Part shown: piece after piece, positions 10,336-58,677 of the stretch
Numbering within the stretch: the stretch's first letter is position 1
Layout: each line of letters begins with the position of its first letter
From: an uncultured bacterium
Lineage (GTDB): Bacteria > Cyanobacteriota > Vampirovibrionia > Gastranaerophilales > Gastranaerophilaceae
Assembly (NCBI GenBank): GCA_902783835.1
Contig: CACZSN010000044.1
Location: forward strand, 1 to 64,000
Direction of reading: 5' to 3'
DNA: 64,000 nucleotides
Translations under genes and position numbers: made by a program
Notes under the pieces: generated by a model
Told to the model about the DNA's origin: nothing
Database searches by the model: none
Seen by the model: only the letters and a program-made list of their open reading frames with translations

Positions 10336-11958
10336 ATGAACGAACAAACATCCGAAATGACTTTAGAACGTGCAAGAGAAGCTCATGAACGTTGGTTAAT
10401 TAAGAATAACAAGAATGATTTAGACAAAGCAATTGAATATTATTCAAGAACACTTTGTGAAAATCCTACTATTCCGGAAAGTTATTACCGATTAGCTATG
10501 TTGCTTTGGGAAAGCGGTCAAATCGGCTTGACATCAGCCATAAACAAGTGTCAGTTGGCATTAACCGTTTCGCCGGAAAATATCAATGCACATCTTTACA
10601 CGGGATATTTTTTCAAACTTGCGGAAAAATTTGACGAAGCGGAAAAAGAATTTAAAAAAGCGATAGATATCAGTCCTATGTTTTCTTCGCGAGCAAGATT
10701 AAATTTAGGTTTATTAAATGCAGAAAAAATTCTTTCAGGCAAATTCAGATTAACTTATGCCTTAAAATCGGCTTATTACCTTACAACAGGAACACTTTTC
10801 GGGATATTGGATTATCCTTATGTGAGAATGGGCATGCAAAAAATAAGGGAAAGTTTTTCAGTTGGAAAATATCTCGTGACGGGAGCCTTACTCCAAAAAT
10901 TCGGATTAGATAAAAAAGCAATAAACACATTTAAGACAGCACAATTTGAAACGGGTCGTTCTGAAATTTTCGGAAAATTAATCGGTGATTTGGACATTAA
11001 AAACGAAAATGTTGATGCGGCACTTGAATCTTATGAAAATGTTTTAAAGGTAAATCCTCATGACAGAGAATCGTTATTAAAAAAAGCAACGATATTACAA
11101 ACATATTACGAAGGCCGTGAAGAAGAAGCAATTGAAGCATATACAAGAGCTCTCGAAACAGATGGTGACAAAGATTATATATATTATGAATTGGGTCACT
11201 TATATTTGAAAAAAAATGAGATTATTAATGCAATAACGGCATTTAAACTTGCTGTTGAAAAAGACCAAACAAATGCATTTTTCCACAATGCACTCGGATT
11301 TGCGTTGTTTACGGCAGGTCAATATGATGATGCGGAAGATCATTATCTTGTCGCAATCAATATGAATCCTGACGCGGAATGGACGGCTACAGTTTGCAGA
11401 GCTTGTGCGTTAATTTATTCCGATGTCAAAAAGAACAACGAAAAAGCAATCAGAATGTATATGCAATCACTTTCGCTTTACCCTGATTGTGCGGATACTT
11501 ATCTTTCGTTGGGTGATTTGTATTTTGACGAAGAAGATTATGACAAAGCACTTGAAAACTACACAAAATCGATTGAATTAAATCCTCAAGACCATTATGC
11601 TTTCAACAAACTTGCAACTTGTTTGTGGCAAAAAGATTTTGTTGAAGAAGCTATAATTTCTTACCGTCACGCAATTGATTTAAATCCCGATTATGATGCG
11701 GCCTATAATAATTTAGGTGCCGTGTATCTTGACGGAAAACAAATGTATAACCAAGCAAAAGATTGTTTCTTAACTGCAATTGAAAAGAATTCGGAATATG
11801 AAATGGCATATTACAATGCAGGAAGAGCATTTGAGGAGCTTGGTGACAAAATTCAGGCAGCAAAATATTATCAAAAAGCATTAGAACTTAATGAAAAGAC
11901 AAAACAAATTACGACAATTGACATACAGTCAAAAATCTTTGAATTGTTTGAGGACTAA
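10336..11958 (+). CDS. Large TPR-repeat protein (paralogue of the gene at 1930-3531)
   Basis: The 540 residues contain roughly a dozen TPR units, with a non-repeat central segment (about 135-190, with KSAYYLTTGTLFGILDYPY) in the same place as in the minus-strand paralogue. Shared blocks include AEWTATVCRACALIYSDVKK against a WTSIVAQTLGYVF block, and YNNLGAVYLDG near the end. There is no signal peptide or membrane helix, so it is probably a cytoplasmic protein-protein interaction scaffold. RBS GAGGCG precedes the ATG. The stop overlaps the stop of convergent aroA by bases 11955-11958, with no terminator between them, so the two transcripts must overlap. Confidence 0.87.
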   Translation: MNEQTSEMTLERAREAHERWLIKNNKNDLDKAIEYYSRTLCENPTIPESYYRLAMLLWESGQIGLTSAINKCQLALTVSPENINAHLYTGYFFKLAEKFDEAEKEFKKAIDISPMFSSRARLNLGLLNAEKILSGKFRLTYALKSAYYLTTGTLFGILDYPYVRMGMQKIRESFSVGKYLVTGALLQKFGLDKKAINTFKTAQFETGRSEIFGKLIGDLDIKNENVDAALESYENVLKVNPHDRESLLKKATILQTYYEGREEEAIEAYTRALETDGDKDYIYYELGHLYLKKNEIINAITAFKLAVEKDQTNAFFHNALGFALFTAGQYDDAEDHYLVAINMNPDAEWTATVCRACALIYSDVKKNNEKAIRMYMQSLSLYPDCADTYLSLGDLYFDEEDYDKALENYTKSIELNPQDHYAFNKLATCLWQKDFVEEAIISYRHAIDLNPDYDAAYNNLGAVYLDGKQMYNQAKDCFLTAIEKNSEYEMAYYNAGRAFEELGDKIQAAKYYQKALELNEKTKQITTIDIQSKIFELFED

Positions 11959-35054: not shown

Positions 35055-36392
35055 TTACTTGATTACGGGCAAATATTCTTTCTTGAGTTTTTTCATTCTT
35101 CTAAGAACAAAATACATTTCAACAAAAGCAATCGCTAAACCTGCCATAAATAAACCAATCCAAAAACCTTTTAGAGGGAGAGGTCGAGTATGTGCAAGAT
35201 AAAACCCTACCGGCAAACCAACAAACCAATATCCTGCAAAAACAGAAAACGTAACTTGTTTCGTCATTTTTAAACCTTTTAAAATACCTCCCAAGGCAAT
35301 TTGAAGACCATCAATAATTTCATAGAAAACAAACAATGAAACTATAGGCAAAGCAACATTATAAAGTTCTTTATCGTGAGTAAATATTCCGATAAATATA
35401 TCGGGCATAACCGCAAACATGAATGAAGCAAATATCATAAAAGTAAGACACATCATTACCCCGACAATACCGAAATTTCTAATTTCATTGTAATTTCTTG
35501 CACCGTTGTAAAATCCGACTTTTATCGCAATTGCCGAAGAAATAGCAAGAGGTATCATAAATGCGGCATCTACAAGAGTTATCAAAATATTGTGAGCAGC
35601 TGCATAAATTGCAGAATGACGACCTAAAGCCAATGTAACTATATTAAATCCTAAAAATTCAACCAAAAAACCTATACCGATTGGACATCCGACTTTCAAT
35701 ATATTTTTGACATATTCCATATCGTAAATTTGATTTCCGTGACCGGATTTTTTAATAATATTCCAAGTATAAACAACCATCGCGATACCAAGAATTATAC
35801 GAACGAGCAAAGTTGCAACGGACAAGCCCAAAACACCCATTGAAGGTATAAATCCCCATCCGAAAACAAATATCCAGTTTAATACCAAGTTCAATAATAC
35901 AGAAGATATCAACAAATAATTCGGGAAATTTACAATTTCATGGGCAAGCAAAAACTCTTTAATCCCTTGAAATAAATACATTCCGAAAACTGAAAATGAA
36001 GTTACATACAAATATATTTGAATATCTTTAACAAGATGAGGTTCAAATCCAAATTTCGGGACAAAATAAGTTATCGCAACAAGTGCAAGCCAAGTTATAA
36101 AAGCAAGCACTTGTGATAACATTACACCGGATGAAAAATAGCGTTTTGTATGTTGTTTTGCCCCGCGGTAATTTGAAAGAACAATTGATATTGCAATCAA
36201 AAAACCTATTCCGAGCATAGAAACAGTAAAAAATATAGAATTTGCAATTGCAATTGCGGCAAGTGCATCAACAGAATATTTTGCCGCAACAAAAACGTCT
36301 ACCGCACCCGTCAATGTATGTCCCAAGTTTCCGACAATCAACGGTGCGGCAATAGTACAAATTTCCAAAAAATATTTTTTGAACTTTTCCAT
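35055..36392 (-). CDS. MATE-family efflux transporter
   Basis: This is a cation-coupled drug/toxin exporter of the inner membrane. The chosen ATG 36392 gives 445 residues and begins MEKFKKYFLEI, immediately before the first helix; the frame extends to 36431 without an RBS. Twelve hydrophobic helices in two MatE halves are visible, with NLGHTLTGAVDVFVAA early and VEFLGFNIVTLALGR at the start of the second half. It is downstream of the radical SAM genes by 75 bases and could be co-transcribed with them. Its substrate is unknown. Confidence 0.9.
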   Translation of the reverse strand: MEKFKKYFLEICTIAAPLIVGNLGHTLTGAVDVFVAAKYSVDALAAIAIANSIFFTVSMLGIGFLIAISIVLSNYRGAKQHTKRYFSSGVMLSQVLAFITWLALVAITYFVPKFGFEPHLVKDIQIYLYVTSFSVFGMYLFQGIKEFLLAHEIVNFPNYLLISSVLLNLVLNWIFVFGWGFIPSMGVLGLSVATLLVRIILGIAMVVYTWNIIKKSGHGNQIYDMEYVKNILKVGCPIGIGFLVEFLGFNIVTLALGRHSAIYAAAHNILITLVDAAFMIPLAISSAIAIKVGFYNGARNYNEIRNFGIVGVMMCLTFMIFASFMFAVMPDIFIGIFTHDKELYNVALPIVSLFVFYEIIDGLQIALGGILKGLKMTKQVTFSVFAGYWFVGLPVGFYLAHTRPLPLKGFWIGLFMAGLAIAFVEMYFVLRRMKKLKKEYLPVIK

Positions 36393-36467: not shown

Positions 36468-37532
36468 TTAAACTTGGCAACCGTCTTCGTTTTGTTTGTG
36501 TTCTTCTTCGTATTTTCCAAACGAAGCATATTCGTACGGAATAAAATCATAATTCGGGAAATCTTGTTCATTATTAACAAAATATCTCGCTGAATTATAC
36601 AATATAATTTGCAAACCTAATTCCGTTGCACGCTCATGCATAAAAGAAATTACATCACGGGCATGTTGCGGGAAAGCAGCTTTTTCTCTTTGTCGCTTAA
36701 ACCATTCGTGTTCAATATCGATTACAATAGAACGAGCACCGCATTCATACGTCATATTCAGCCATTTTTCAGCCTCTTCAATATTGTCATTGATATTAGG
36801 CATTATAATGTATTTTGTCGCAACCAACGGAATATTATTAACATTTTCAGCTTCCGCATATCGACGAACATTTTCGACAACTTTATCGTATGCATCAACA
36901 TTTTTTATTTTTCTGAAAGTTTCTCTTGAGCCTGAATCAAGTGACAACACAACATCAACGATTCCTGCACTGATTCCTCTTGCAATAGCAGGCGAATATT
37001 TGATACCGGAAGTATGAATAATAACTTTAGGAACTTTCTTTTCCACAAGCAAATCAAGTAATTCTTCAAATTCATCAAGAATTGTCGGTTCTCCGCCGGC
37101 AAATGTTATTTCCCCACCGCCTCTGAATAATTTTTTATCAAACATATCTTTTACAACCGGCAAAACATTGTAATAACGTTGTTTATTGAAAAAGTCCTTA
37201 TTGTAATCCGTAAAGCAGTAAATACATTTACAATTACAATGTGTCCAATGGTTAAAGTGAAGATAATTGAAATAATGATCTTCATCATCCCAATTTTTTT
37301 CCCATAAATTGAAACAACCTTCGCATTTCGGATTAATTTCTCCACGTTTATTTTCGTCAACAAAAGCCTTTTTGAGTTCAAAAATTTCGTCCCAATCCAA
37401 AGGTTCACCGTTATAAGGCTGTTTAACATACAAATTTCCGCCACCGACATGACATCTTAAACAACACATTTCAATGTGTCCCGGCTCAAAATTCATACCA
37501 TGTGTTATCCAATTACAACTGTTATATTTCAT
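36468..37532 (-). CDS. Radical SAM enzyme with amino-terminal cysteine set, paralogue A
   Basis: The 354 residues hold a radical SAM core with CX3CX2C at C99-C103-C106 and an extra C101 (HCNCKCIYC), followed by GGGEITFAGGEP, a SAM-binding motif at about 139-150. Ahead of it is a conserved block: C6, then HGMN (11-14), C23C24 plus C27, GGG (30-32), LDWDEIF (45-51) and CEGC (70-73). The five shared cysteines could hold a second iron-sulfur cluster amino-terminal to the core, the reverse of SPASM proteins, where extra cysteines are carboxy-terminal. AAGGAA precedes the ATG. The substrate is unknown. Confidence 0.9.
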   Translation of the reverse strand: MKYNSCNWITHGMNFEPGHIEMCCLRCHVGGGNLYVKQPYNGEPLDWDEIFELKKAFVDENKRGEINPKCEGCFNLWEKNWDDEDHYFNYLHFNHWTHCNCKCIYCFTDYNKDFFNKQRYYNVLPVVKDMFDKKLFRGGGEITFAGGEPTILDEFEELLDLLVEKKVPKVIIHTSGIKYSPAIARGISAGIVDVVLSLDSGSRETFRKIKNVDAYDKVVENVRRYAEAENVNNIPLVATKYIIMPNINDNIEEAEKWLNMTYECGARSIVIDIEHEWFKRQREKAAFPQHARDVISFMHERATELGLQIILYNSARYFVNNEQDFPNYDFIPYEYASFGKYEEEHKQNEDGCQV

Positions 37533-37562
37533 AATTTTTCCTTTGAATTTATAACTGAATTT

Positions 37563-38546
37563 TTATGCTTGTTGTGCAATTTGTGCGTCTTTTTGACGTT
37601 TTTCTTCGAGCATATGTGCCGCACGTTCATATACCCCGTATAATAATCCTCTATTCAATGCACCTTGTTTTGCATATTCAAACAAGTCATATATATATTG
37701 AGGAACTCTGTCCCGTCTTGCATAAAACCATTGTGATTCAATTTCCTGTAAAACATGCCCGATACCGCACTCAACTGCTTTATCAAGCCAACTGTCAATT
37801 TCCGCCTTTGTATCATTTACCCCCGGAATAACAATGTATTTTGCCATTACAAGTTCGGGGCGTTGTTGAACAGATGCATATCTCTTCAAATTTTCCCAAA
37901 CTCTGTCATAAGTTTTTACCTCTTTTATAAGGGCATGCATTTCTTCCGTTCCGGAATCAACAGAAACAATTAAATCAACTTTTCCTCTGCGTAAGCCGTC
38001 TTCTATAACTTTTGAATAATCAATACATCCCGTATGAATTCGGATAAAATAGTCGTAATCGAGAAAAATTTGTAAGCATTCTTCAAATTCTTTGAGCAAA
38101 CAAACTTCTCCGCCTCCAAAACTTACGTCTCCGCCTCTTATCAAAAGATTTTTGGAAATCATATCTTTTAAAATAGGCAAAAAGTCATAATTTTTTTTCG
38201 TATTATAAATATCTTTTTTGTTATGTGTATGACAATAAATACAATTGCAATTGCAATATGTCCAATAATCAAGGTTAAAGAAATTAAATTGGTCGGACTC
38301 CTCCCAATCACGTTCTTCCAAATAAATACAACCTTCACATTTATGGTATGTTCCGCCTGATTTATGCAAATCTTTTATTTCTTTTTTAAAAGCAAAAAAT
38401 TTGTCCCAATCAATCGGACCGCCTTGATAATTTTCAATAACTTTTGTGTCTCCGCCGCCTTTTGCACTATATTGGCAACAAAGTTTTATTGAATCGATGT
38501 CAAAGTTTATTCCGTGTTCTATTTTTGTGCAACTTTTATAAATCAA
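37563..38546 (-). CDS. Radical SAM enzyme with amino-terminal cysteine set, paralogue B
   Basis: The 327 residues align end to end with A and C: C6, HGIN, C23C24, GGG, IDWDKFF, CEGC (70-73), and the core cluster C98, C102 and C105 with extra C100 (YCNCNCIYC), then GGGDVSFGGGEV in place of GGEP. C27 of A is absent (S27). The start is TTG at 38546, with GGAG ten bases before it, overlapping the stop of paralogue C by four bases. The GGEV variant is a small change in the SAM-contact loop. It lacks the acidic tail of A. Confidence 0.88.
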   Translation of the reverse strand: MIYKSCTKIEHGINFDIDSIKLCCQYSAKGGGDTKVIENYQGGPIDWDKFFAFKKEIKDLHKSGGTYHKCEGCIYLEERDWEESDQFNFFNLDYWTYCNCNCIYCHTHNKKDIYNTKKNYDFLPILKDMISKNLLIRGGDVSFGGGEVCLLKEFEECLQIFLDYDYFIRIHTGCIDYSKVIEDGLRRGKVDLIVSVDSGTEEMHALIKEVKTYDRVWENLKRYASVQQRPELVMAKYIVIPGVNDTKAEIDSWLDKAVECGIGHVLQEIESQWFYARRDRVPQYIYDLFEYAKQGALNRGLLYGVYERAAHMLEEKRQKDAQIAQQA

Positions 38547-39565
38547 TGTCCGTATTCTCCACGATGAATATTCATATCATTTGCTCGGTCATACAACTCA
38601 CAGCGTATCATTCCGAGTTCTTTCGCTTTATTTACACCGTAATCAATAAGATCATAAATATGTTGAGGAACTTCGTGTTTATGCCACTGATACCAACCGC
38701 CTTCAATGTCAAGCACAATCCATCTTACACCGGCATCAACAGTAAGTTCAAACCATTTTTCAAGTTCTTCAAACGTGTCATTATACCCCGGAATAATAAT
38801 AAATTTCGTTCTTGCCAAGCCTTTATCTTTTGTTTGGGCATCCGCATAACGTCTGATATTTTCCCAAACTTTATCAAATAAAGGTACATTTTTAATCTTC
38901 TTATAAGTTTCTGCCGTACCTGCATCGGGAGAAACAACAACATTTAATATTCCTTCGGAAATTCCTCTTGCAATAGCAGGTGAATACTTAATTCCCGAAG
39001 AATGAACTCTGATATTATCCATGCCCGCATCAATAAGCAAATTGACAAGCGGTTCAAATTCATCCAAAATTGCAGGTTCACCGCCACCGAAACCGACTTC
39101 TCCGCCTGCTCTTAACTGTTTTCTTTCGGCAAGTTCTTTAATTTGTTCAAAAATCGGATAGTTAGGACGTTTTGCAAATTCTTCAAAGTTTTCGGAAGTA
39201 AAGCAATAGTTACACTTGCAATTACATCTTGTCCAATGATTGAAAACCATAAAAGATATATAATCTTCATCATCCCACTCACGTTCTTTCAGGAAGAAAC
39301 AACCTTTGCATCTGTCAAGAGTAATGCCTTTCTTGTTGAGTTCACGCATTTCCCGTTTTTCTGCAAAAAATTTATCCCAATCAATTTTTTCACCGTAATA
39401 ATCAGGGATTAAAATCTGACGTCCGCCACCTTCATGGGTATTCATACAGCACATTTTAATGTCTTCATAATCAGCATTAAAACCGTGTTGAATGTATTCA
39501 CAACTCAAATAGCGGTGCTTCGACTTGTTCTTATTAAACATATCTTTTATGCTTTGAAAATTCAT
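38543..39565 (-). CDS. Radical SAM enzyme with amino-terminal cysteine set, paralogue C
   Basis: The first gene of the triplet, 340 residues. A 16-residue Lys-rich leader precedes the block seen in A and B: C22, HGFN, C39C40, GGG, IDWDKFF, CKGC (86-89), the core C114, C118 and C121 with extra C116, and GGGEVGFGGGEP. A strong GGAG lies eight bases before the ATG. C starts the probable operon C-B-A and, with a 75-base gap, the MATE gene. The nearest upstream minus-strand gene ends in its own terminator at 39664-39689. Confidence 0.9.
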   Translation of the reverse strand: MNFQSIKDMFNKNKSKHRYLSCEYIQHGFNADYEDIKMCCMNTHEGGGRQILIPDYYGEKIDWDKFFAEKREMRELNKKGITLDRCKGCFFLKEREWDDEDYISFMVFNHWTRCNCKCNYCFTSENFEEFAKRPNYPIFEQIKELAERKQLRAGGEVGFGGGEPAILDEFEPLVNLLIDAGMDNIRVHSSGIKYSPAIARGISEGILNVVVSPDAGTAETYKKIKNVPLFDKVWENIRRYADAQTKDKGLARTKFIIIPGYNDTFEELEKWFELTVDAGVRWIVLDIEGGWYQWHKHEVPQHIYDLIDYGVNKAKELGMIRCELYDRANDMNIHRGEYGH

Positions 39566-39663: not shown

Positions 39664-39689
39664 AAAAAAAAGACCTCTTTCGAGGTCCT
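39664..39689 (-). terminator. Terminator of the first CHAP protein gene
   Basis: GACCTC (39672-39677) and GAGGTC (39682-39687) around TTTC, followed on the minus strand by eight Ts (39664-39671). Confidence 0.9.
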
Positions 39690-39699
39690 TTTATTAAAT

Positions 39700-41451
39700 T
39701 TATGAAACAATGTCTGAAAGTTTGATGAAACCTGTAAGAGACTTGTCATAAATACTTTTCTTATTTGACTTAACTTGGTCGCTTGAGTTACCTTCAACGG
39801 TTGTGAATGTTCCGTCTGATTTAATTGATTTAACGATACCAGTGTGAGAAGCACCGTTGCTTTTCCAAATGATAACATCGCCGACTGACAAGTTATTTTT
39901 AGCGTAATCAAGTTTTTGGTTGTTGGACATTTTTGATGTGTTATCGAATACACCGTTCTTTTGTGCCCAAGACATAAGATTTGATACTGCCGGTGAACCG
40001 AAGCCTGAAGCAACTTTAAGACCGTTTTCTTTAGCATATTCTTTTACTACGTATGTTACGAAGTCTGCACACCAAGATTCAGTTCTTCCGTTTGTAAACA
40101 TTTTATATGAGCCGTCTTTTTCGTTGATACCCATATATTTGCTTGCAAGGTCAACCAAACCGCTTCCGACGTCATTAGCCATTTTACCTTTGTTTACACC
40201 GGCTTGTTTAGCTTCTTTCTTTTGTGCTTTTTCTTTTGCTTCGATTTTTTCATCAATCTTAGCTACATCTTTTGTCTTTTGTGCTTTCAATTCTTTGATT
40301 GAAGAATTCAAAGAATCAATTTTCTTGCCAAGAGAAGGACTTTGTTCGCTAATTTGTTTTTCAACATTCTTAACGTTCTTTTGTTGTTCTTTTTCTTGTG
40401 CTTGTAATTTTGTTATTTTAGCTTCTTCGTTCTTAATTTTTTCTGAAAGTTTTGTTTTCTTTTCTTTCTTTGCTGTTAAAGACTCTTTGATTTTTGATAA
40501 TCTTGATTTGTTTTCTTTATTAACTTTTGAATTTTTTGTATCTGTCTTAAGTTGACCTTTTTCACCTTCAAGAGCGGCAATACTTGCTTCCAAATCAGCT
40601 AAGCTTGCTTTGTGAGTTGCTAATGAAGATTGAGTGTCTGACAATTTTGATTGGATATCAGACAATGCTTTTTGTTGAGATGAATATTCAGCTTTGAGTT
40701 CTGAACTGATTTTGTTATCATCTGCGATTAGTTTATCTTTTTTGCTTTGTTTTTGTTCGATTTTCTTATCTGCATCTGAAATTGTTTCTGATCTTTGTTT
40801 TCTCAATTCTTCAACTTCATCAGCCGCAGTTTTTGTTTGAGTTTTTGAACTGCTGTTTGTGCCTGAGTTGTAGTTTGAGTTTGACCTTGAAGTTGAACCG
40901 CTTGTGCTGCCTGCTGATGAAGAAGAACTTGCGGAAGAAGTTGATTTAGGAGCTGATTGTGCAAGAAGTTTTTGTTCTGCAAGATCATCTTCAACTCTTT
41001 GGAAAGCTTCTTTAATCAATTTTTCCAAATCTGATTCAGTTGTTACGCTTATTGAATCAATAAATTCATCAATATCATTTTGAGTAAGGCTTGTAGCATC
41101 ACCGTCATAACCTGCAAGGTTTTGCATAAATGCTTTAGCTTCATCTTCCGAAACACCGTCAACACCATCAGTATCAGCAAGTTCTTGAACTTGGTCATTT
41201 GACATTAATGATTGGAAGATTGATGATAAATCTCCGTTCTTTGCTTTGTTTGCAGAATCTGCTTTACCTGAAGTTAATGCATCTATTGCCGAAGTGTAAT
41301 CAAAATTTTCAAGATTTGAGAAACTAATGTCATCAAAAATTGAAGTGTTTGATTTTGTCGTACTTGAAGAAAAGTAATCGGCAGATGTCTTGGAACTGTT
41401 AGCTTGTTCCAATCTTTTCAATATGTATTTTGATACATCTAAGTTTGCCAT
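39700..41451 (-). CDS. EF-hand-like, coiled-coil, CHAP-domain protein (paralogue 1)
   Basis: ATG 41451 gives 583 residues; the frame extends to 41481 but the paralogue at 41568-43370 begins with the same MxNLxxxxYxLK pattern. There is no signal peptide. An acidic DTDGVDGVSEDEA loop (about 95-107) looks like an EF-hand Ca site, followed by a Ser-rich linker (about 170-205), a long Lys/Glu/Gln coiled coil (about 215-430) and a carboxy-terminal CHAP domain (about 450-575). The CHAP catalytic Cys is in SWCADFV, the His in ASHTGIV, and EGNSS follows. CHAP domains cut peptidoglycan peptide bonds. How it would leave the cell is not evident. Confidence 0.85.
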   Translation of the reverse strand: MANLDVSKYILKRLEQANSSKTSADYFSSSTTKSNTSIFDDISFSNLENFDYTSAIDALTSGKADSANKAKNGDLSSIFQSLMSNDQVQELADTDGVDGVSEDEAKAFMQNLAGYDGDATSLTQNDIDEFIDSISVTTESDLEKLIKEAFQRVEDDLAEQKLLAQSAPKSTSSASSSSSAGSTSGSTSRSNSNYNSGTNSSSKTQTKTAADEVEELRKQRSETISDADKKIEQKQSKKDKLIADDNKISSELKAEYSSQQKALSDIQSKLSDTQSSLATHKASLADLEASIAALEGEKGQLKTDTKNSKVNKENKSRLSKIKESLTAKKEKKTKLSEKIKNEEAKITKLQAQEKEQQKNVKNVEKQISEQSPSLGKKIDSLNSSIKELKAQKTKDVAKIDEKIEAKEKAQKKEAKQAGVNKGKMANDVGSGLVDLASKYMGINEKDGSYKMFTNGRTESWCADFVTYVVKEYAKENGLKVASGFGSPAVSNLMSWAQKNGVFDNTSKMSNNQKLDYAKNNLSVGDVIIWKSNGASHTGIVKSIKSDGTFTTVEGNSSDQVKSNKKSIYDKSLTGFIKLSDIVS

Positions 41452-41512
41452 TATTTTACACTTACACCTTTCATGTTTCATGTCGGCAATTTAGATGATT
41501 TCTTTAATAAAT

Positions 41513-41546
41513 AAAAAAAGATTGTAACGAAATTGTTACAATCTTT
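41513..41546 (-). terminator. Terminator of the second CHAP protein gene
   Basis: GATTGTAAC (41520-41528) pairs with GTTACAATC (41535-41543), with a seven-T run on the minus strand (41513-41519). Confidence 0.88.
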
Positions 41547-41567
41547 AATTCTTACTTTCTTAAAATT

Positions 41568-43370
41568 CTATGATAATTTTACATAACCAAGAATGTTACC
41601 GCTGTTTCTTTTCTTGGAAGCTACTTGGCTTCCTGAGTTATTACCCGAAGTATTACCTTCGATGGTTTCAACTGTTCCGTCTCCGTTAACACCGATTACA
41701 TAACCGATGTGATCAGCATTTCCGTCGCCGTCCCAGTCAAACAATACCGCATCACCTGCTTGAGCTTGTTCCGCACCGACAAATGCATTATTTGCCTGAG
41801 CATTTCTCATAATGTCGGGGCAATATGCTCTGTTACAATTTTTGTACCAATCAGGAAGATTTTCTTCTCCAATTGTTTGGCTTGCGATGAAGCTTACGAA
41901 ATCTGCACACCATGCTCCGTTATCGAATTGATAACCTTTAGCTCTCATGATTTCACGCATTTCGTCTTGAGTTTTGCCTTCAAATTGTTTTGCGAGATCA
42001 ATAACGTCATCACCGGAGAGGAATGAATTTTCCTTCATGAATCCGTCACGTTCTTCTTTTTGTTTTGCATCTTGAAGTTGAACGTTCAATTCTTGAATTT
42101 CGCTTCTGAGTCCTGCAACGGTTTGTTCTTTTTGAGCACGAATGTCAGCGATTTTTGTATCATATTGAGCAATTTGTTGCTTCATTTGTTCAACAGCTTG
42201 TGAAGAACCTACTCCTTTTGCAAATCCTGCTGAATCATCCAAAGTTTTTGACAAAAGTTCTTGTTTTTGAGTTTCAAGTTGTTGTTTTTGAGTTTGAGCA
42301 GTTTGAACCGCTTCTTTTTCTTTTGCGTTTTCTTCTTCTAATTTTTTGTTATCTTCTTGAACTGATTGTAATTTTGCTTCAAGATTATCAATTTTTTGTT
42401 GAATTTCTGATTTTTTAGAAGATGCATTTTCATCATCACCGGAAACTGCACCTAACGCTGTTTTGTTATTTGCAATTTGTGATTCCAAAGAGCTGATGTA
42501 ATTGCTGTTAGAAGAAATTGTAGCTTCATTTTGAGAAATCTTTTCGTTATGACCGTCTATTTCCTTATCTTTTGCGGTAATATTGTCTTCTAATTTCTTT
42601 TCTTGTTCTTTGTAAACTTCGTATTCTTTTTCAGAAACACCTGCTTGTTCCATAGCGGTTTTCTTAGCTTCTTCTTGCTCTTCAATTTGAGCTTGAGCAT
42701 CTTCTTCCGCTTTGGTTATTTCGCCTTCTTTGTCTTTAATTTTTTGTTCTAATTCATCAACCGTTTCGGCAGTTGTTTTTGTTTGATTAGCGTTGTTAAC
42801 GGATGAACCGTAATTTCCGCCTGATGAATAATTGCCGCCTACGTTACCTGAAGTTCCGTTAGTGTTTGCAATTTCTTGATTTTTCTTTGTATCTTCAATT
42901 GCTTCTTCTTCGTCAAGACCGAGAGATTCTTCAATTGCTTTATCAATTTCATCATTCAAATCAATATTTAACGATTGAATAACAGTATCCAAATCGTCCA
43001 TTGTCAAATTTGTCAAATCACCGTCAAAAGCCATTGCACTCTTTAAAAATTCAAGGGCTTCATCTGCATCTAAATCACCGCTTTTGTCTGTATCGGCAGC
43101 TTGAACAACACCGTCAACGTCCAAAAAAGCTTTAACCATTTCAGCCAATGCTTTTTGGTCTGCTGATGCGTTTTCATCAACTGCATCAAGTGCATCATCG
43201 GAAGCCAATAATTTTTCGATATCAAGATTTTTTAAATCTTCAATCGTTGCAGAATCAAATGCCGAAACATTTTGATATTGTTCAAATTTGTTAGCTGTAA
43301 GAGTTCCGAAAGAAGAACCGTCAAGGGCAATCTTCTTTAATAAATAGCTATTAAAATTTAAGTTTGTCAT
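41568..43370 (-). CDS. EF-hand, coiled-coil, CHAP-domain protein (paralogue 2)
   Basis: The 600 residues share the order of the neighbour: an amino terminus MTNLNFNSYLLKKIALD, a canonical-looking EF-hand loop DTDKSGDLDADE (about 98-109), a Gly/Ser/Asn linker (about 170-195), a coiled coil (about 200-455), and a CHAP domain (about 460-600). The CHAP Cys is in AWCADFVSF, the His in ADHIGYVIG, and the third site near EGNTS. There is no signal peptide here either. The gene has its own terminator and a divergent gap before nadA. Each CHAP gene is therefore a separate transcript of duplicate origin. Confidence 0.85.
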   Translation of the reverse strand: MTNLNFNSYLLKKIALDGSSFGTLTANKFEQYQNVSAFDSATIEDLKNLDIEKLLASDDALDAVDENASADQKALAEMVKAFLDVDGVVQAADTDKSGDLDADEALEFLKSAMAFDGDLTNLTMDDLDTVIQSLNIDLNDEIDKAIEESLGLDEEEAIEDTKKNQEIANTNGTSGNVGGNYSSGGNYGSSVNNANQTKTTAETVDELEQKIKDKEGEITKAEEDAQAQIEEQEEAKKTAMEQAGVSEKEYEVYKEQEKKLEDNITAKDKEIDGHNEKISQNEATISSNSNYISSLESQIANNKTALGAVSGDDENASSKKSEIQQKIDNLEAKLQSVQEDNKKLEEENAKEKEAVQTAQTQKQQLETQKQELLSKTLDDSAGFAKGVGSSQAVEQMKQQIAQYDTKIADIRAQKEQTVAGLRSEIQELNVQLQDAKQKEERDGFMKENSFLSGDDVIDLAKQFEGKTQDEMREIMRAKGYQFDNGAWCADFVSFIASQTIGEENLPDWYKNCNRAYCPDIMRNAQANNAFVGAEQAQAGDAVLFDWDGDGNADHIGYVIGVNGDGTVETIEGNTSGNNSGSQVASKKRNSGNILGYVKLS

Positions 43371-56750: not shown

Positions 56751-57707
56751 TTACAGAGAGAAATGTTTGATTAACGCAGGAACGACTTCACTCCAAGCGG
56801 AATACGAAGGGTGAGGTCTTTCCATATCGTCTGGAATTCTGTCAGTTTTTCCGTCCATTTTTCTGCCGATTAAATCTTCTGTCGAAACAGCTGTTATCCC
56901 AAGATTTTCAAATCTTTTACGGATTTCGGAAGAATACAAAAAGTCAAATGATTTATCAATTCGTTCTTTGTTTTCTTTTTCATTCAAATTAAAATTTTCA
57001 CTCAAATCATTATTCACATCTGAATACAAAAGCACAATAAACTTGCTGTCAGGAAATTTTTTGTCACATTCAGCCTTAACAGCTTCGACAATTTTGAAAA
57101 AGAAATCAATGTTTTCCTCAAACGACAATTCCCAAAGATATCTTTGAAATTTAGTGTTTTGAATATATTGAACAGACCAAAGTTTATAAGCGAAGTTATA
57201 GCCCTGATTCGGGATAAGATTTCTTTTTCTGTAAGAATCAAAATTTTGCCATTGACCGCAACGTTGTATATGGTCAAACATATAAGTATATATAATATAC
57301 TCGGGAGTTTGGAGGTTTTTATCTTTATTATTATCGAACAACAACAACGCTTCCGAAATATTATATCCGCTTAAACCGAAATTATAGCATAATCTTTTTG
57401 TTGCTTTTTCTACAAGATACGGAAATGTTTCATCATCTGAAAGTCTGTAACCATATGTATAAGAGCATCCTAAAAACAAAATCGGTCTTTTTTCATGCTT
57501 TTCAATATGCTTTTCCGCCCTTAATTTTGACCAAGACGGAATTGAATTTATTTCAGTTTTTCCGCTGACAAAATTTGCTACGGAACCGGCATTTGAGGTG
57601 TATTTACAATATGAAAAAAATTCAAACAATAACAGCAACGAAACAATACAAACGACATTAATTGCCAATATTTTGAATATTTTATTTTTTTCGCCAAAAA
57701 GTTTCAT
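56751..57707 (-). CDS. Membrane-anchored SGNH-like hydrolase, paralogue 1
   Basis: The 318 residues start with a membrane anchor (about 11-33). The block-I motif GCSYTYG (about 79-85) holds the nucleophile Ser, GLSGYNIS is block II, and the terminal His is in RPHPSYSAW. The residue three before that His, which is Asp in classical GDSL enzymes, is Glu (MERPH). SGNH proteins often deacetylate or acetylate envelope polysaccharides. It is a tandem duplicate of the gene at 57721-58677, with a 13-base gap. Confidence 0.8.
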   Translation of the reverse strand: MKLFGEKNKIFKILAINVVCIVSLLLLFEFFSYCKYTSNAGSVANFVSGKTEINSIPSWSKLRAEKHIEKHEKRPILFLGCSYTYGYRLSDDETFPYLVEKATKRLCYNFGLSGYNISEALLLFDNNKDKNLQTPEYIIYTYMFDHIQRCGQWQNFDSYRKRNLIPNQGYNFAYKLWSVQYIQNTKFQRYLWELSFEENIDFFFKIVEAVKAECDKKFPDSKFIVLLYSDVNNDLSENFNLNEKENKERIDKSFDFLYSSEIRKRFENLGITAVSTEDLIGRKMDGKTDRIPDDMERPHPSYSAWSEVVPALIKHFSL

Positions 57708-57720
57708 AAGTTTACACCCA

Positions 57721-58677
57721 TCAAAGATTAAATTTTTTCACAAATTCAGGGGCAATTTGTTGCCAAGCGGAATACGAAGGATGAGGTCTGTTTTCATCAT
57801 TTGCAACTCTGTCTTCAACTCTGTCCATCTTTCGACCGAGTAATTCCTCCGTCGATACAACTGTTATGCCCATTTTTTCAAATCTTTTTCTAAACTCCGA
57901 AGAGTTTAAAAGTTGAAAAGTTTTATCCAAATCGTTATTTACGGCTTCGTATTTATCAGATAAACTTTTGCTCAAATCTTTGTTTACGTCGGAATATATC
58001 AAAACAACAAATTTGCTGTCGGGAAACATTTTATCACATTCGGATTTTACAACCGCAAGAATTTTAAAATAAAAGTCAATATTTCCTGCAGTATCTAAAT
58101 TTGAAAAATATTTCTTCGCTAATCTTGCACTTTGAATGTATTGAACCGACCACAGTTTATACAAAAAATTGTACTTCTGGTCAGGTATCAATCCACGTAT
58201 TCTGAAAGAATCAAATAAATTCCAATAATCATTTCTGTTAATATGGTCAAACATATAGGTATAAACTATATATTCAGGCTTTGAAATTGTAAGCAATTTA
58301 TCTTTGAATTTTTTAGAATCGATTAATAACAACTCTTCACTGATATTATATCCAATCATGCCGAAATTATAGCAATTTCTACCTGTCAATTTTTCAACAG
58401 TCGCCGAAAATGTTTCTTCATCTTTTAAATGAAAACCGTATGTATATGAACCGCCAAAAAATAAAATCGGTCTTTTCTTATTATCGTCAAGATGCTTTGT
58501 TTCTCTTATTTCCGCCCATGTCGGGATTGATTTTTCACAATTATAGCCACCAACAAAATTAGGCTTGTAATCAATTTTTTTTAAAAACAAAGAATAAGAA
58601 ATATATTCAAAACATAAAAATATAATAATCAAGAAAATCAGATTAATTAATATTTTTGAAAAACCTCTTTGTCCCAT
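57721..58677 (-). CDS. Membrane-anchored SGNH-like hydrolase, paralogue 2
   Basis: Also 318 residues, with a membrane anchor (about 7-27), GGSYTYG (about 74-80), GMIGYNIS and the terminal RPHPSYSAW. Here the position three before the His is Asn (ENRPH). Sequence identity with paralogue 1 is high and continuous, so this is a recent tandem duplication. It is the first gene of the pair. No RBS is evident before its ATG. An extracellular or periplasmic position of the catalytic part is inferred from the anchor. Confidence 0.8.
   Translation of the reverse strand: MGQRGFSKILINLIFLIIIFLCFEYISYSLFLKKIDYKPNFVGGYNCEKSIPTWAEIRETKHLDDNKKRPILFFGGSYTYGFHLKDEETFSATVEKLTGRNCYNFGMIGYNISEELLLIDSKKFKDKLLTISKPEYIVYTYMFDHINRNDYWNLFDSFRIRGLIPDQKYNFLYKLWSVQYIQSARLAKKYFSNLDTAGNIDFYFKILAVVKSECDKMFPDSKFVVLIYSDVNKDLSKSLSDKYEAVNNDLDKTFQLLNSSEFRKRFEKMGITVVSTEELLGRKMDRVEDRVANDENRPHPSYSAWQQIAPEFVKKFNL

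Follow-up and report, generated by a model that had tools for sequence, protein, structure and literature searches.

Three radical SAM (rSAM) genes and a gene for a MATE transporter form an operon in the Gastranaerophilales DNA analyzed here (a stretch of 64,000 nucleotides, the window), and profile comparison and structure prediction indicate that the enzymes carry a Twitch domain in front of their rSAM core. The reading we prefer, at a probability of roughly 45%, is that these proteins, termed C, B, and A, are Twitch rSAM oxidoreductases tailoring a sugar- or glycan-type substrate, whose product the MATE protein would move. Two aspects stand out, namely a lineage-restricted multiplication of the family and the fusion of an rSAM enzyme to a MATE transporter; in the open-access literature searched, no paper on the former and no description of the latter were found.

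Operon layout of C, B, A, and the MATE gene

ORF analysis of the window placed the rSAM genes on the minus strand in the transcription order C, B, A, with the MATE gene downstream.

38543..39565, minus strand: gene C, N-Twitch radical SAM protein of 340 aa, first gene of the operon
39242..39517, minus strand: predicted relocated Twitch domain of C, residues 17-108, with Cys22, Cys39, Cys86, and Cys89 (AlphaFold2 topology, profile comparison, conservation)
39203..39226, minus strand: core motif of C, CNCKCNYC, with Cys114, Cys118, and Cys121 as predicted SAM-cluster ligands; Cys116 is not conserved
37563..38546, minus strand: gene B, N-Twitch radical SAM protein of 327 aa, whose TTG start overlaps the end of C
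38268..38540, minus strand: predicted relocated Twitch domain of B, residues 3-93 (profile comparison, conservation)
36468..37532, minus strand: gene A, N-Twitch radical SAM protein of 354 aa, with relatives fused to MATE in five species
37254..37526, minus strand: predicted relocated Twitch domain of A, residues 3-93, with Cys6, Cys23, Cys70, and Cys73 (profile comparison, conservation)
37215..37238, minus strand: core motif of A, CNCKCIYC (sequence and conservation)
35055..36392, minus strand: MATE-family transporter, 75 bases past A, first ATG at 36392 (PF01554, TIGR00797)

Each of the three proteins displays a C-x16-CC motif, CxGC about 45 residues further on, and then CNCxCxYC with one rSAM core that matches PF04055 (E 1e-11 to 4e-20). 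Their pairwise identities of 39-46% reflect homology rather than chance. ORFs, Pfam matches, and identities thus confirm the original prediction of three tandem rSAM paralogues with shared amino-terminal Cys motifs and a MATE gene 75 bases downstream. The transporter belongs to the MATE family according to both PF01554 (E 2.5e-39, 135 bits versus a cut-off of 24.9) and TIGR00797 (194 bits versus 147), and its nearest solved structures are those of NorM (E 2e-38). Intergenic gaps in the operon span 0-75 bases. Judged by gap lengths, neither this operon nor orthologous C-MATE loci have room for a precursor peptide gene as found in RaS-RiPP operons, and a gene for a small peptide, to be looked for in related genomes according to the original prediction, has no place there. 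No glycan gene adjoins the C-B-A-MATE operon of the window.

Upstream of the operon, two proteins of ~600 aa that combine CHAP domains with long coiled coils are encoded on the minus strand (window 39700-43370). CHAP relatives precede the triplet in locus L099 and a CHAP-type end does so in L100, with none beside the operon in L098. A link between CHAP proteins and the operon was rejected, as a terminator-like hairpin near 39665-39695 separates the two and the arrangement is not conserved.

A Twitch domain in front of the rSAM core

A profile search of the amino-terminal block, proposed together with the original prediction, yielded no Pfam, NCBIfam, or PHROGs assignment for residues 1 to 90-110 of C, B, and A; the block does align with Twitch domains and resembles, below cut-off, the layout of NF033640. 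Twitch domains consist of a hairpin followed by a helix; in BtrN, four Cys ligate a [4Fe-4S] cluster, and in SkfB the hairpin is flanked by one Cys on each side while the helix is followed by two more (PMC6231123). The AlphaFold2 model of C (63 homologues, mean pLDDT 93.6, pTM 0.89), judged by the order of its secondary-structure elements, runs from Cys22 via a beta hairpin (28-32/35-37), Cys39, and a helix (63-78) to Cys86-x2-Cys89. Model and profile alignment both contain hairpin and helix in this order, with a Cys on either side of the hairpin and CxxC after the helix.

Aligning a profile for residues 15-108 to carboxy-terminal Twitch domains, taken from SPASM-type proteins of the same order, gave a score of 24.5 with all four Cys in register, versus 9.9 +/- 1.9 (maximum 17.1) in 200 column shuffles of that profile. 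When the whole family is compared with whole SPASM/Twitch proteins, the score rises from 147 to 164 once the block is placed behind the core. The short Twitch alignment has a modest absolute probability of 28%, and the case therefore rests jointly on register, shuffles, permutation, and model. Foldseek searches of the C model against the PDB matched mainly the core, as is expected of a permuted domain. Taken together, profiles and model indicate that the Cys block represents a Twitch domain transferred to the amino-terminal side of the core, very probably binding one auxiliary cluster. Its reading as an auxiliary set has thus held up, whereas its separation from SPASM/Twitch enzymes has not: a relocated Twitch does not amount to a novel class of cluster domain.

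Across 261 family members, C6, C23, C70, and C73 are conserved along with core C99, C103, and C106 (A numbering), the core Cys being kept in 260 members. The shared Cys set proposed earlier stands in these positions, except for the second Cys of the "CC" motif, which varies (Cys in 212 of 241 members with a residue there). The extra core Cys of CxCxCxxC had been taken for a family feature, but this middle position holds Cys in 109 members, Ser in 98, and other residues in the rest. Apparent losses of the first two Twitch Cys are mostly late starts picked by the ORF caller. One small subgroup truly lacks the Twitch Cys set while keeping the core Cys (L053:920-1786, L040:3957-4823, L057:8963-9829, L055:8966-9844). 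The B orthologue at L058:2217-3197 has CNCNGIYC as its core motif, with Gly in place of the second ligand Cys; this protein may be inactive, or else the change is an assembly error.

An amino-terminal Twitch layout is already known from phage rSAM proteins such as that of KVP40 (Q6WHP4) and from NF033640, named N_Twi_rSAM in NCBIfam, which likewise place Twitch before a single rSAM core. Foldseek against viral models returned full-length matches to phage N-Twitch proteins (TM about 0.6). The family nevertheless stays far under the NF033640 cut-off of 170 bits, at about 17-31 bits (A 30.8, B 16.7), and no protein of the window's own genome exceeds it. Unlike NF033640 and the phage proteins, it has a signature of its own (SCxxIxHGxxF...CC...GGG...DW), a MATE partner, and a massive copy number. 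By these sequence comparisons the family is similar to NF033640 and not a member of it. BtrN, a 2-deoxy-scyllo-inosamine dehydrogenase, shares the single auxiliary site, the four Cys, and the hairpin/helix order (PMC6231123), but its Twitch lies behind the core, and its sequence match to the family covers the core only. The best PDB matches to the family core in sequence or fold, BlsE (cytosylglucuronate decarboxylase) and GDGT-MAS/Tes, differ in Twitch position as well, with likeness confined to the core save for weak pieces in Tes.

Family expansion in Gastranaerophilales

All 63 of 63 members examined match PF04055, placing them in the radical SAM superfamily. The window's own genome (G000, 1.88 Mb, 92% complete) contains 18 full-length paralogues, three of which are C, B, and A. 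A 4-row alignment, with which remote relatives beyond the order may go unnoticed, was used to scan a genome collection and recovered 76 loci, mostly from the gut of rabbit, ruminant, deer, and chicken; all belong to Candidatus Gastranaerophilales or unnamed bacteria, bar one doubtful Endomicrobia bin. That contig, L064 (CAJOJJ010000068.1), shares its gene layout with the Gastranaerophilales contig L060 and is probably mis-binned. Strong family matches number 10-42 per genome in 29 metagenome-assembled genomes, with 42 in G097. In broad samples of the order and phylum, with few candidates scored per genome, the expansion is restricted to genera g1, g13, and g45; some sister genera have one or two remote relatives (E 1e-32 to 1e-47), and none were found elsewhere in those samples. 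As far as these sequence scans reach, the family with its 10-42 copies per genome is exclusive to Gastranaerophilales. A phage or plasmid origin was rejected, since phages, plasmids, and viral contigs yielded no full-length relatives.

In the family tree, A, B, and C sit in three separate clades, which rules out a recent tandem triplication. Phylogeny thus presents the triplet as an assembly of old paralogues. Most other paralogues are single genes amid unrelated housekeeping genes, with no MATE gene. Several members deviate in structure or arrangement. The G000 paralogue at L016:9518-10500 (G000:C40) is broken by an in-frame TAG inside the amino-terminal domain and is likely a pseudogene. Tandem fusions of two family members in one open frame of ~650 aa occur at G003:C35:43978-45912 and G004:C19:5333-7267. 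An rSAM hotspot of eight genes on both strands, with no other gene between them, lies at L177:5441-14592 (G097 contig C9), where family members are mixed with N_Twi-type rSAM genes whose products match the Twitch positions of NF033640 in their own amino-terminal part.

MATE partnership and the likely product

The C orthologues of 32 genomes group in one clade (support 1.0). In 31 of these genomes, the MATE gene lies in the same operon, headed by C; in the lone exception (L088/G016), MATE is located elsewhere in the genome. At C-MATE loci, the MATE gene usually overlaps the preceding rSAM gene by 11-80 bases. Five g1 genomes have the order C-B-A-MATE. In five species, C is followed by a single ORF of 758-764 aa comprising an A-type rSAM domain and a MatE domain, both above their Pfam cut-offs, and the rSAM part falls within the A-type clade (support 0.98). 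These five fusions are monophyletic and 57-72% identical, indicating that the fusion is old and maintained. The absence of MATE linkage in relatives had been named beforehand as a refutation; linkage is instead real and stronger than could be seen from the window. MATE linkage as a family-wide trait was rejected, being confined to the C and A lineages. B-type and A-type genes of other genera (L094, L096, L103, L181) adjoin at a locus separate from C-MATE, and both loci are united as one operon in g1. This repeated assembly of B-A with C-MATE is the best evidence, at the level of gene order, that the four products work together.

Genomes without the expansion carry a single-copy MATE orthologue in a different setting, such as the vicinity of ndk and tgt, so that the rSAM-MATE partnership must have been acquired. 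The same orthologues would also suit a housekeeping efflux pump, co-expressed as a guard against rSAM side products, while the targets of the enzymes would be cell constituents that never pass through the pump. We regard this as quite improbable, because co-expression alone is hard to square with an A-type fusion kept in five species at 57-72% identity, or with repeated joining at different loci.

Glycan-related genes were found around single-copy remote homologues from sister genera. These homologues include GT2-rSAM fusions in L203 and L238, and in L202 an rSAM-hexapeptide acetyltransferase fusion next to a PGA_cap capsule gene, an arrangement that L244-L246 share as judged by gene order. 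The rSAM gene adjoins a polysaccharide pyruvyl transferase and GT2 in L205, shares an operon with a TPP enzyme, a methyltransferase, and GT2 in L109, and is followed by a MurJ-family flippase and GT2 in L233. Altogether, 11 of 24 remote homologues are fused to GT2 or at most two genes away from it, versus 11/248, 0/221, and 3/61 background genes in other loci (about 0-5%), counts that come from small, partly related samples and are indicative only. At five C-MATE loci, C is immediately preceded by a GT2 gene, which is of one kind in L063, L077, and L084 and of another in L066 and L080; within the expansion, 1/18 and 0/34 members are near GT2. Fusions and neighboring genes of the remote homologues favor a sugar- or glycan-type substrate over a peptide. 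The earlier idea of a modified metabolite or peptide exported by the MATE pump therefore stands as regards an exported metabolite, with a peptide now less favored.

On the preferred reading, C, B, and A would each hold two clusters, a [4Fe-4S]-SAM cluster in the core and, ahead of it, a single Twitch cluster ligated entirely by Cys. The core cluster would cleave SAM, and the resulting 5'-deoxyadenosyl radical would abstract an H atom from the substrate, presumably a sugar-containing or glycan-type small molecule. The Twitch cluster would accept the second electron, resulting in oxidation, as suggested for the auxiliary cluster of BtrN (PMC6231123, PMC9012708). The three enzymes would work on the same or successive intermediates, probably in successive steps, and hand the product to the MATE protein for passage across the membrane. 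Counting against this reading are the lack of a glycan gene next to the operon, the solitary position of most expansion paralogues, and the NorM-like, drug-pump type of the MATE protein, which also occurs without the rSAM family.

The enzymes might instead build a non-sugar small natural product, a modified peptide or other metabolite, for MATE export, the glycan context of the remote homologues then belonging to a different branch. Tryglysin (RaS-RiPP) clusters likewise combine an rSAM enzyme with an adjoining MATE exporter, WgkD, whose model the window MATE matches weakly (84 bits, cut-off 510); the core is structurally near the RiPP enzymes SkfB and SuiB, and glycan neighbors are absent for most family members. 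Unlike tryglysin clusters, however, C-B-A-MATE lacks a precursor gene, for which the operon gaps are too small, and a carboxy-terminal SPASM domain; the place before the core is taken by Twitch instead of a peptide-recognition domain, and relatives carry glycan fusions. We consider a non-sugar product unlikely, albeit a serious contender.

Some family genes have other neighbors. A protein of ~450 aa without Pfam match, c1, with a weakly papain-like fold and conserved Cys, GGHE, and CNDT motifs, is encoded at L010:5662-7014 and in 35 related loci (L021-L057, L106, L107), next to another cluster, in which 4-5 family rSAM genes are laid out as a divergent pair. A calpain-like protein adjoins the C25 paralogue. 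Related proteins of ~300 aa with an N-terminal membrane segment are encoded near some family rSAM genes (window 56751-58677; L018:6819-7739 and 10468-11355) and flank one rSAM gene on both sides in L018; the one tested, window:56754-57707, had no Pfam match.

Papain-fold or CHAP proteins of this kind could be substrates if the family modified proteins, as 36 loci have c1 beside the other rSAM cluster, the calpain-like protein stands beside C25, and CHAP proteins precede the window operon. The hairpin between the CHAP gene and C, the L098 operon without CHAP genes alongside, and the C-MATE loci of other genera, free of c1-type and CHAP genes, argue against this, and we judge protein modification to be very unlikely.

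Returning to a sugar-type product, the N-Twitch rSAM-MATE fusion could act as a modify-and-export machine in one polypeptide, feeding its product straight into the pump, with the 10-42 fold multiplication diversifying exported or surface sugars; we offer this as a speculative extension, more probably wrong than right. The fusion would allow a direct test of hand-over between radical enzyme and pump, and the relocated domain supports the view that Twitch can serve the core from either chain end. For uncultured, non-photosynthetic cyanobacteria of the gut, 10-42 copies per 2-Mb genome represent an unusual share of coding capacity, and such a copy number points to unrecognized chemistry in the gut.
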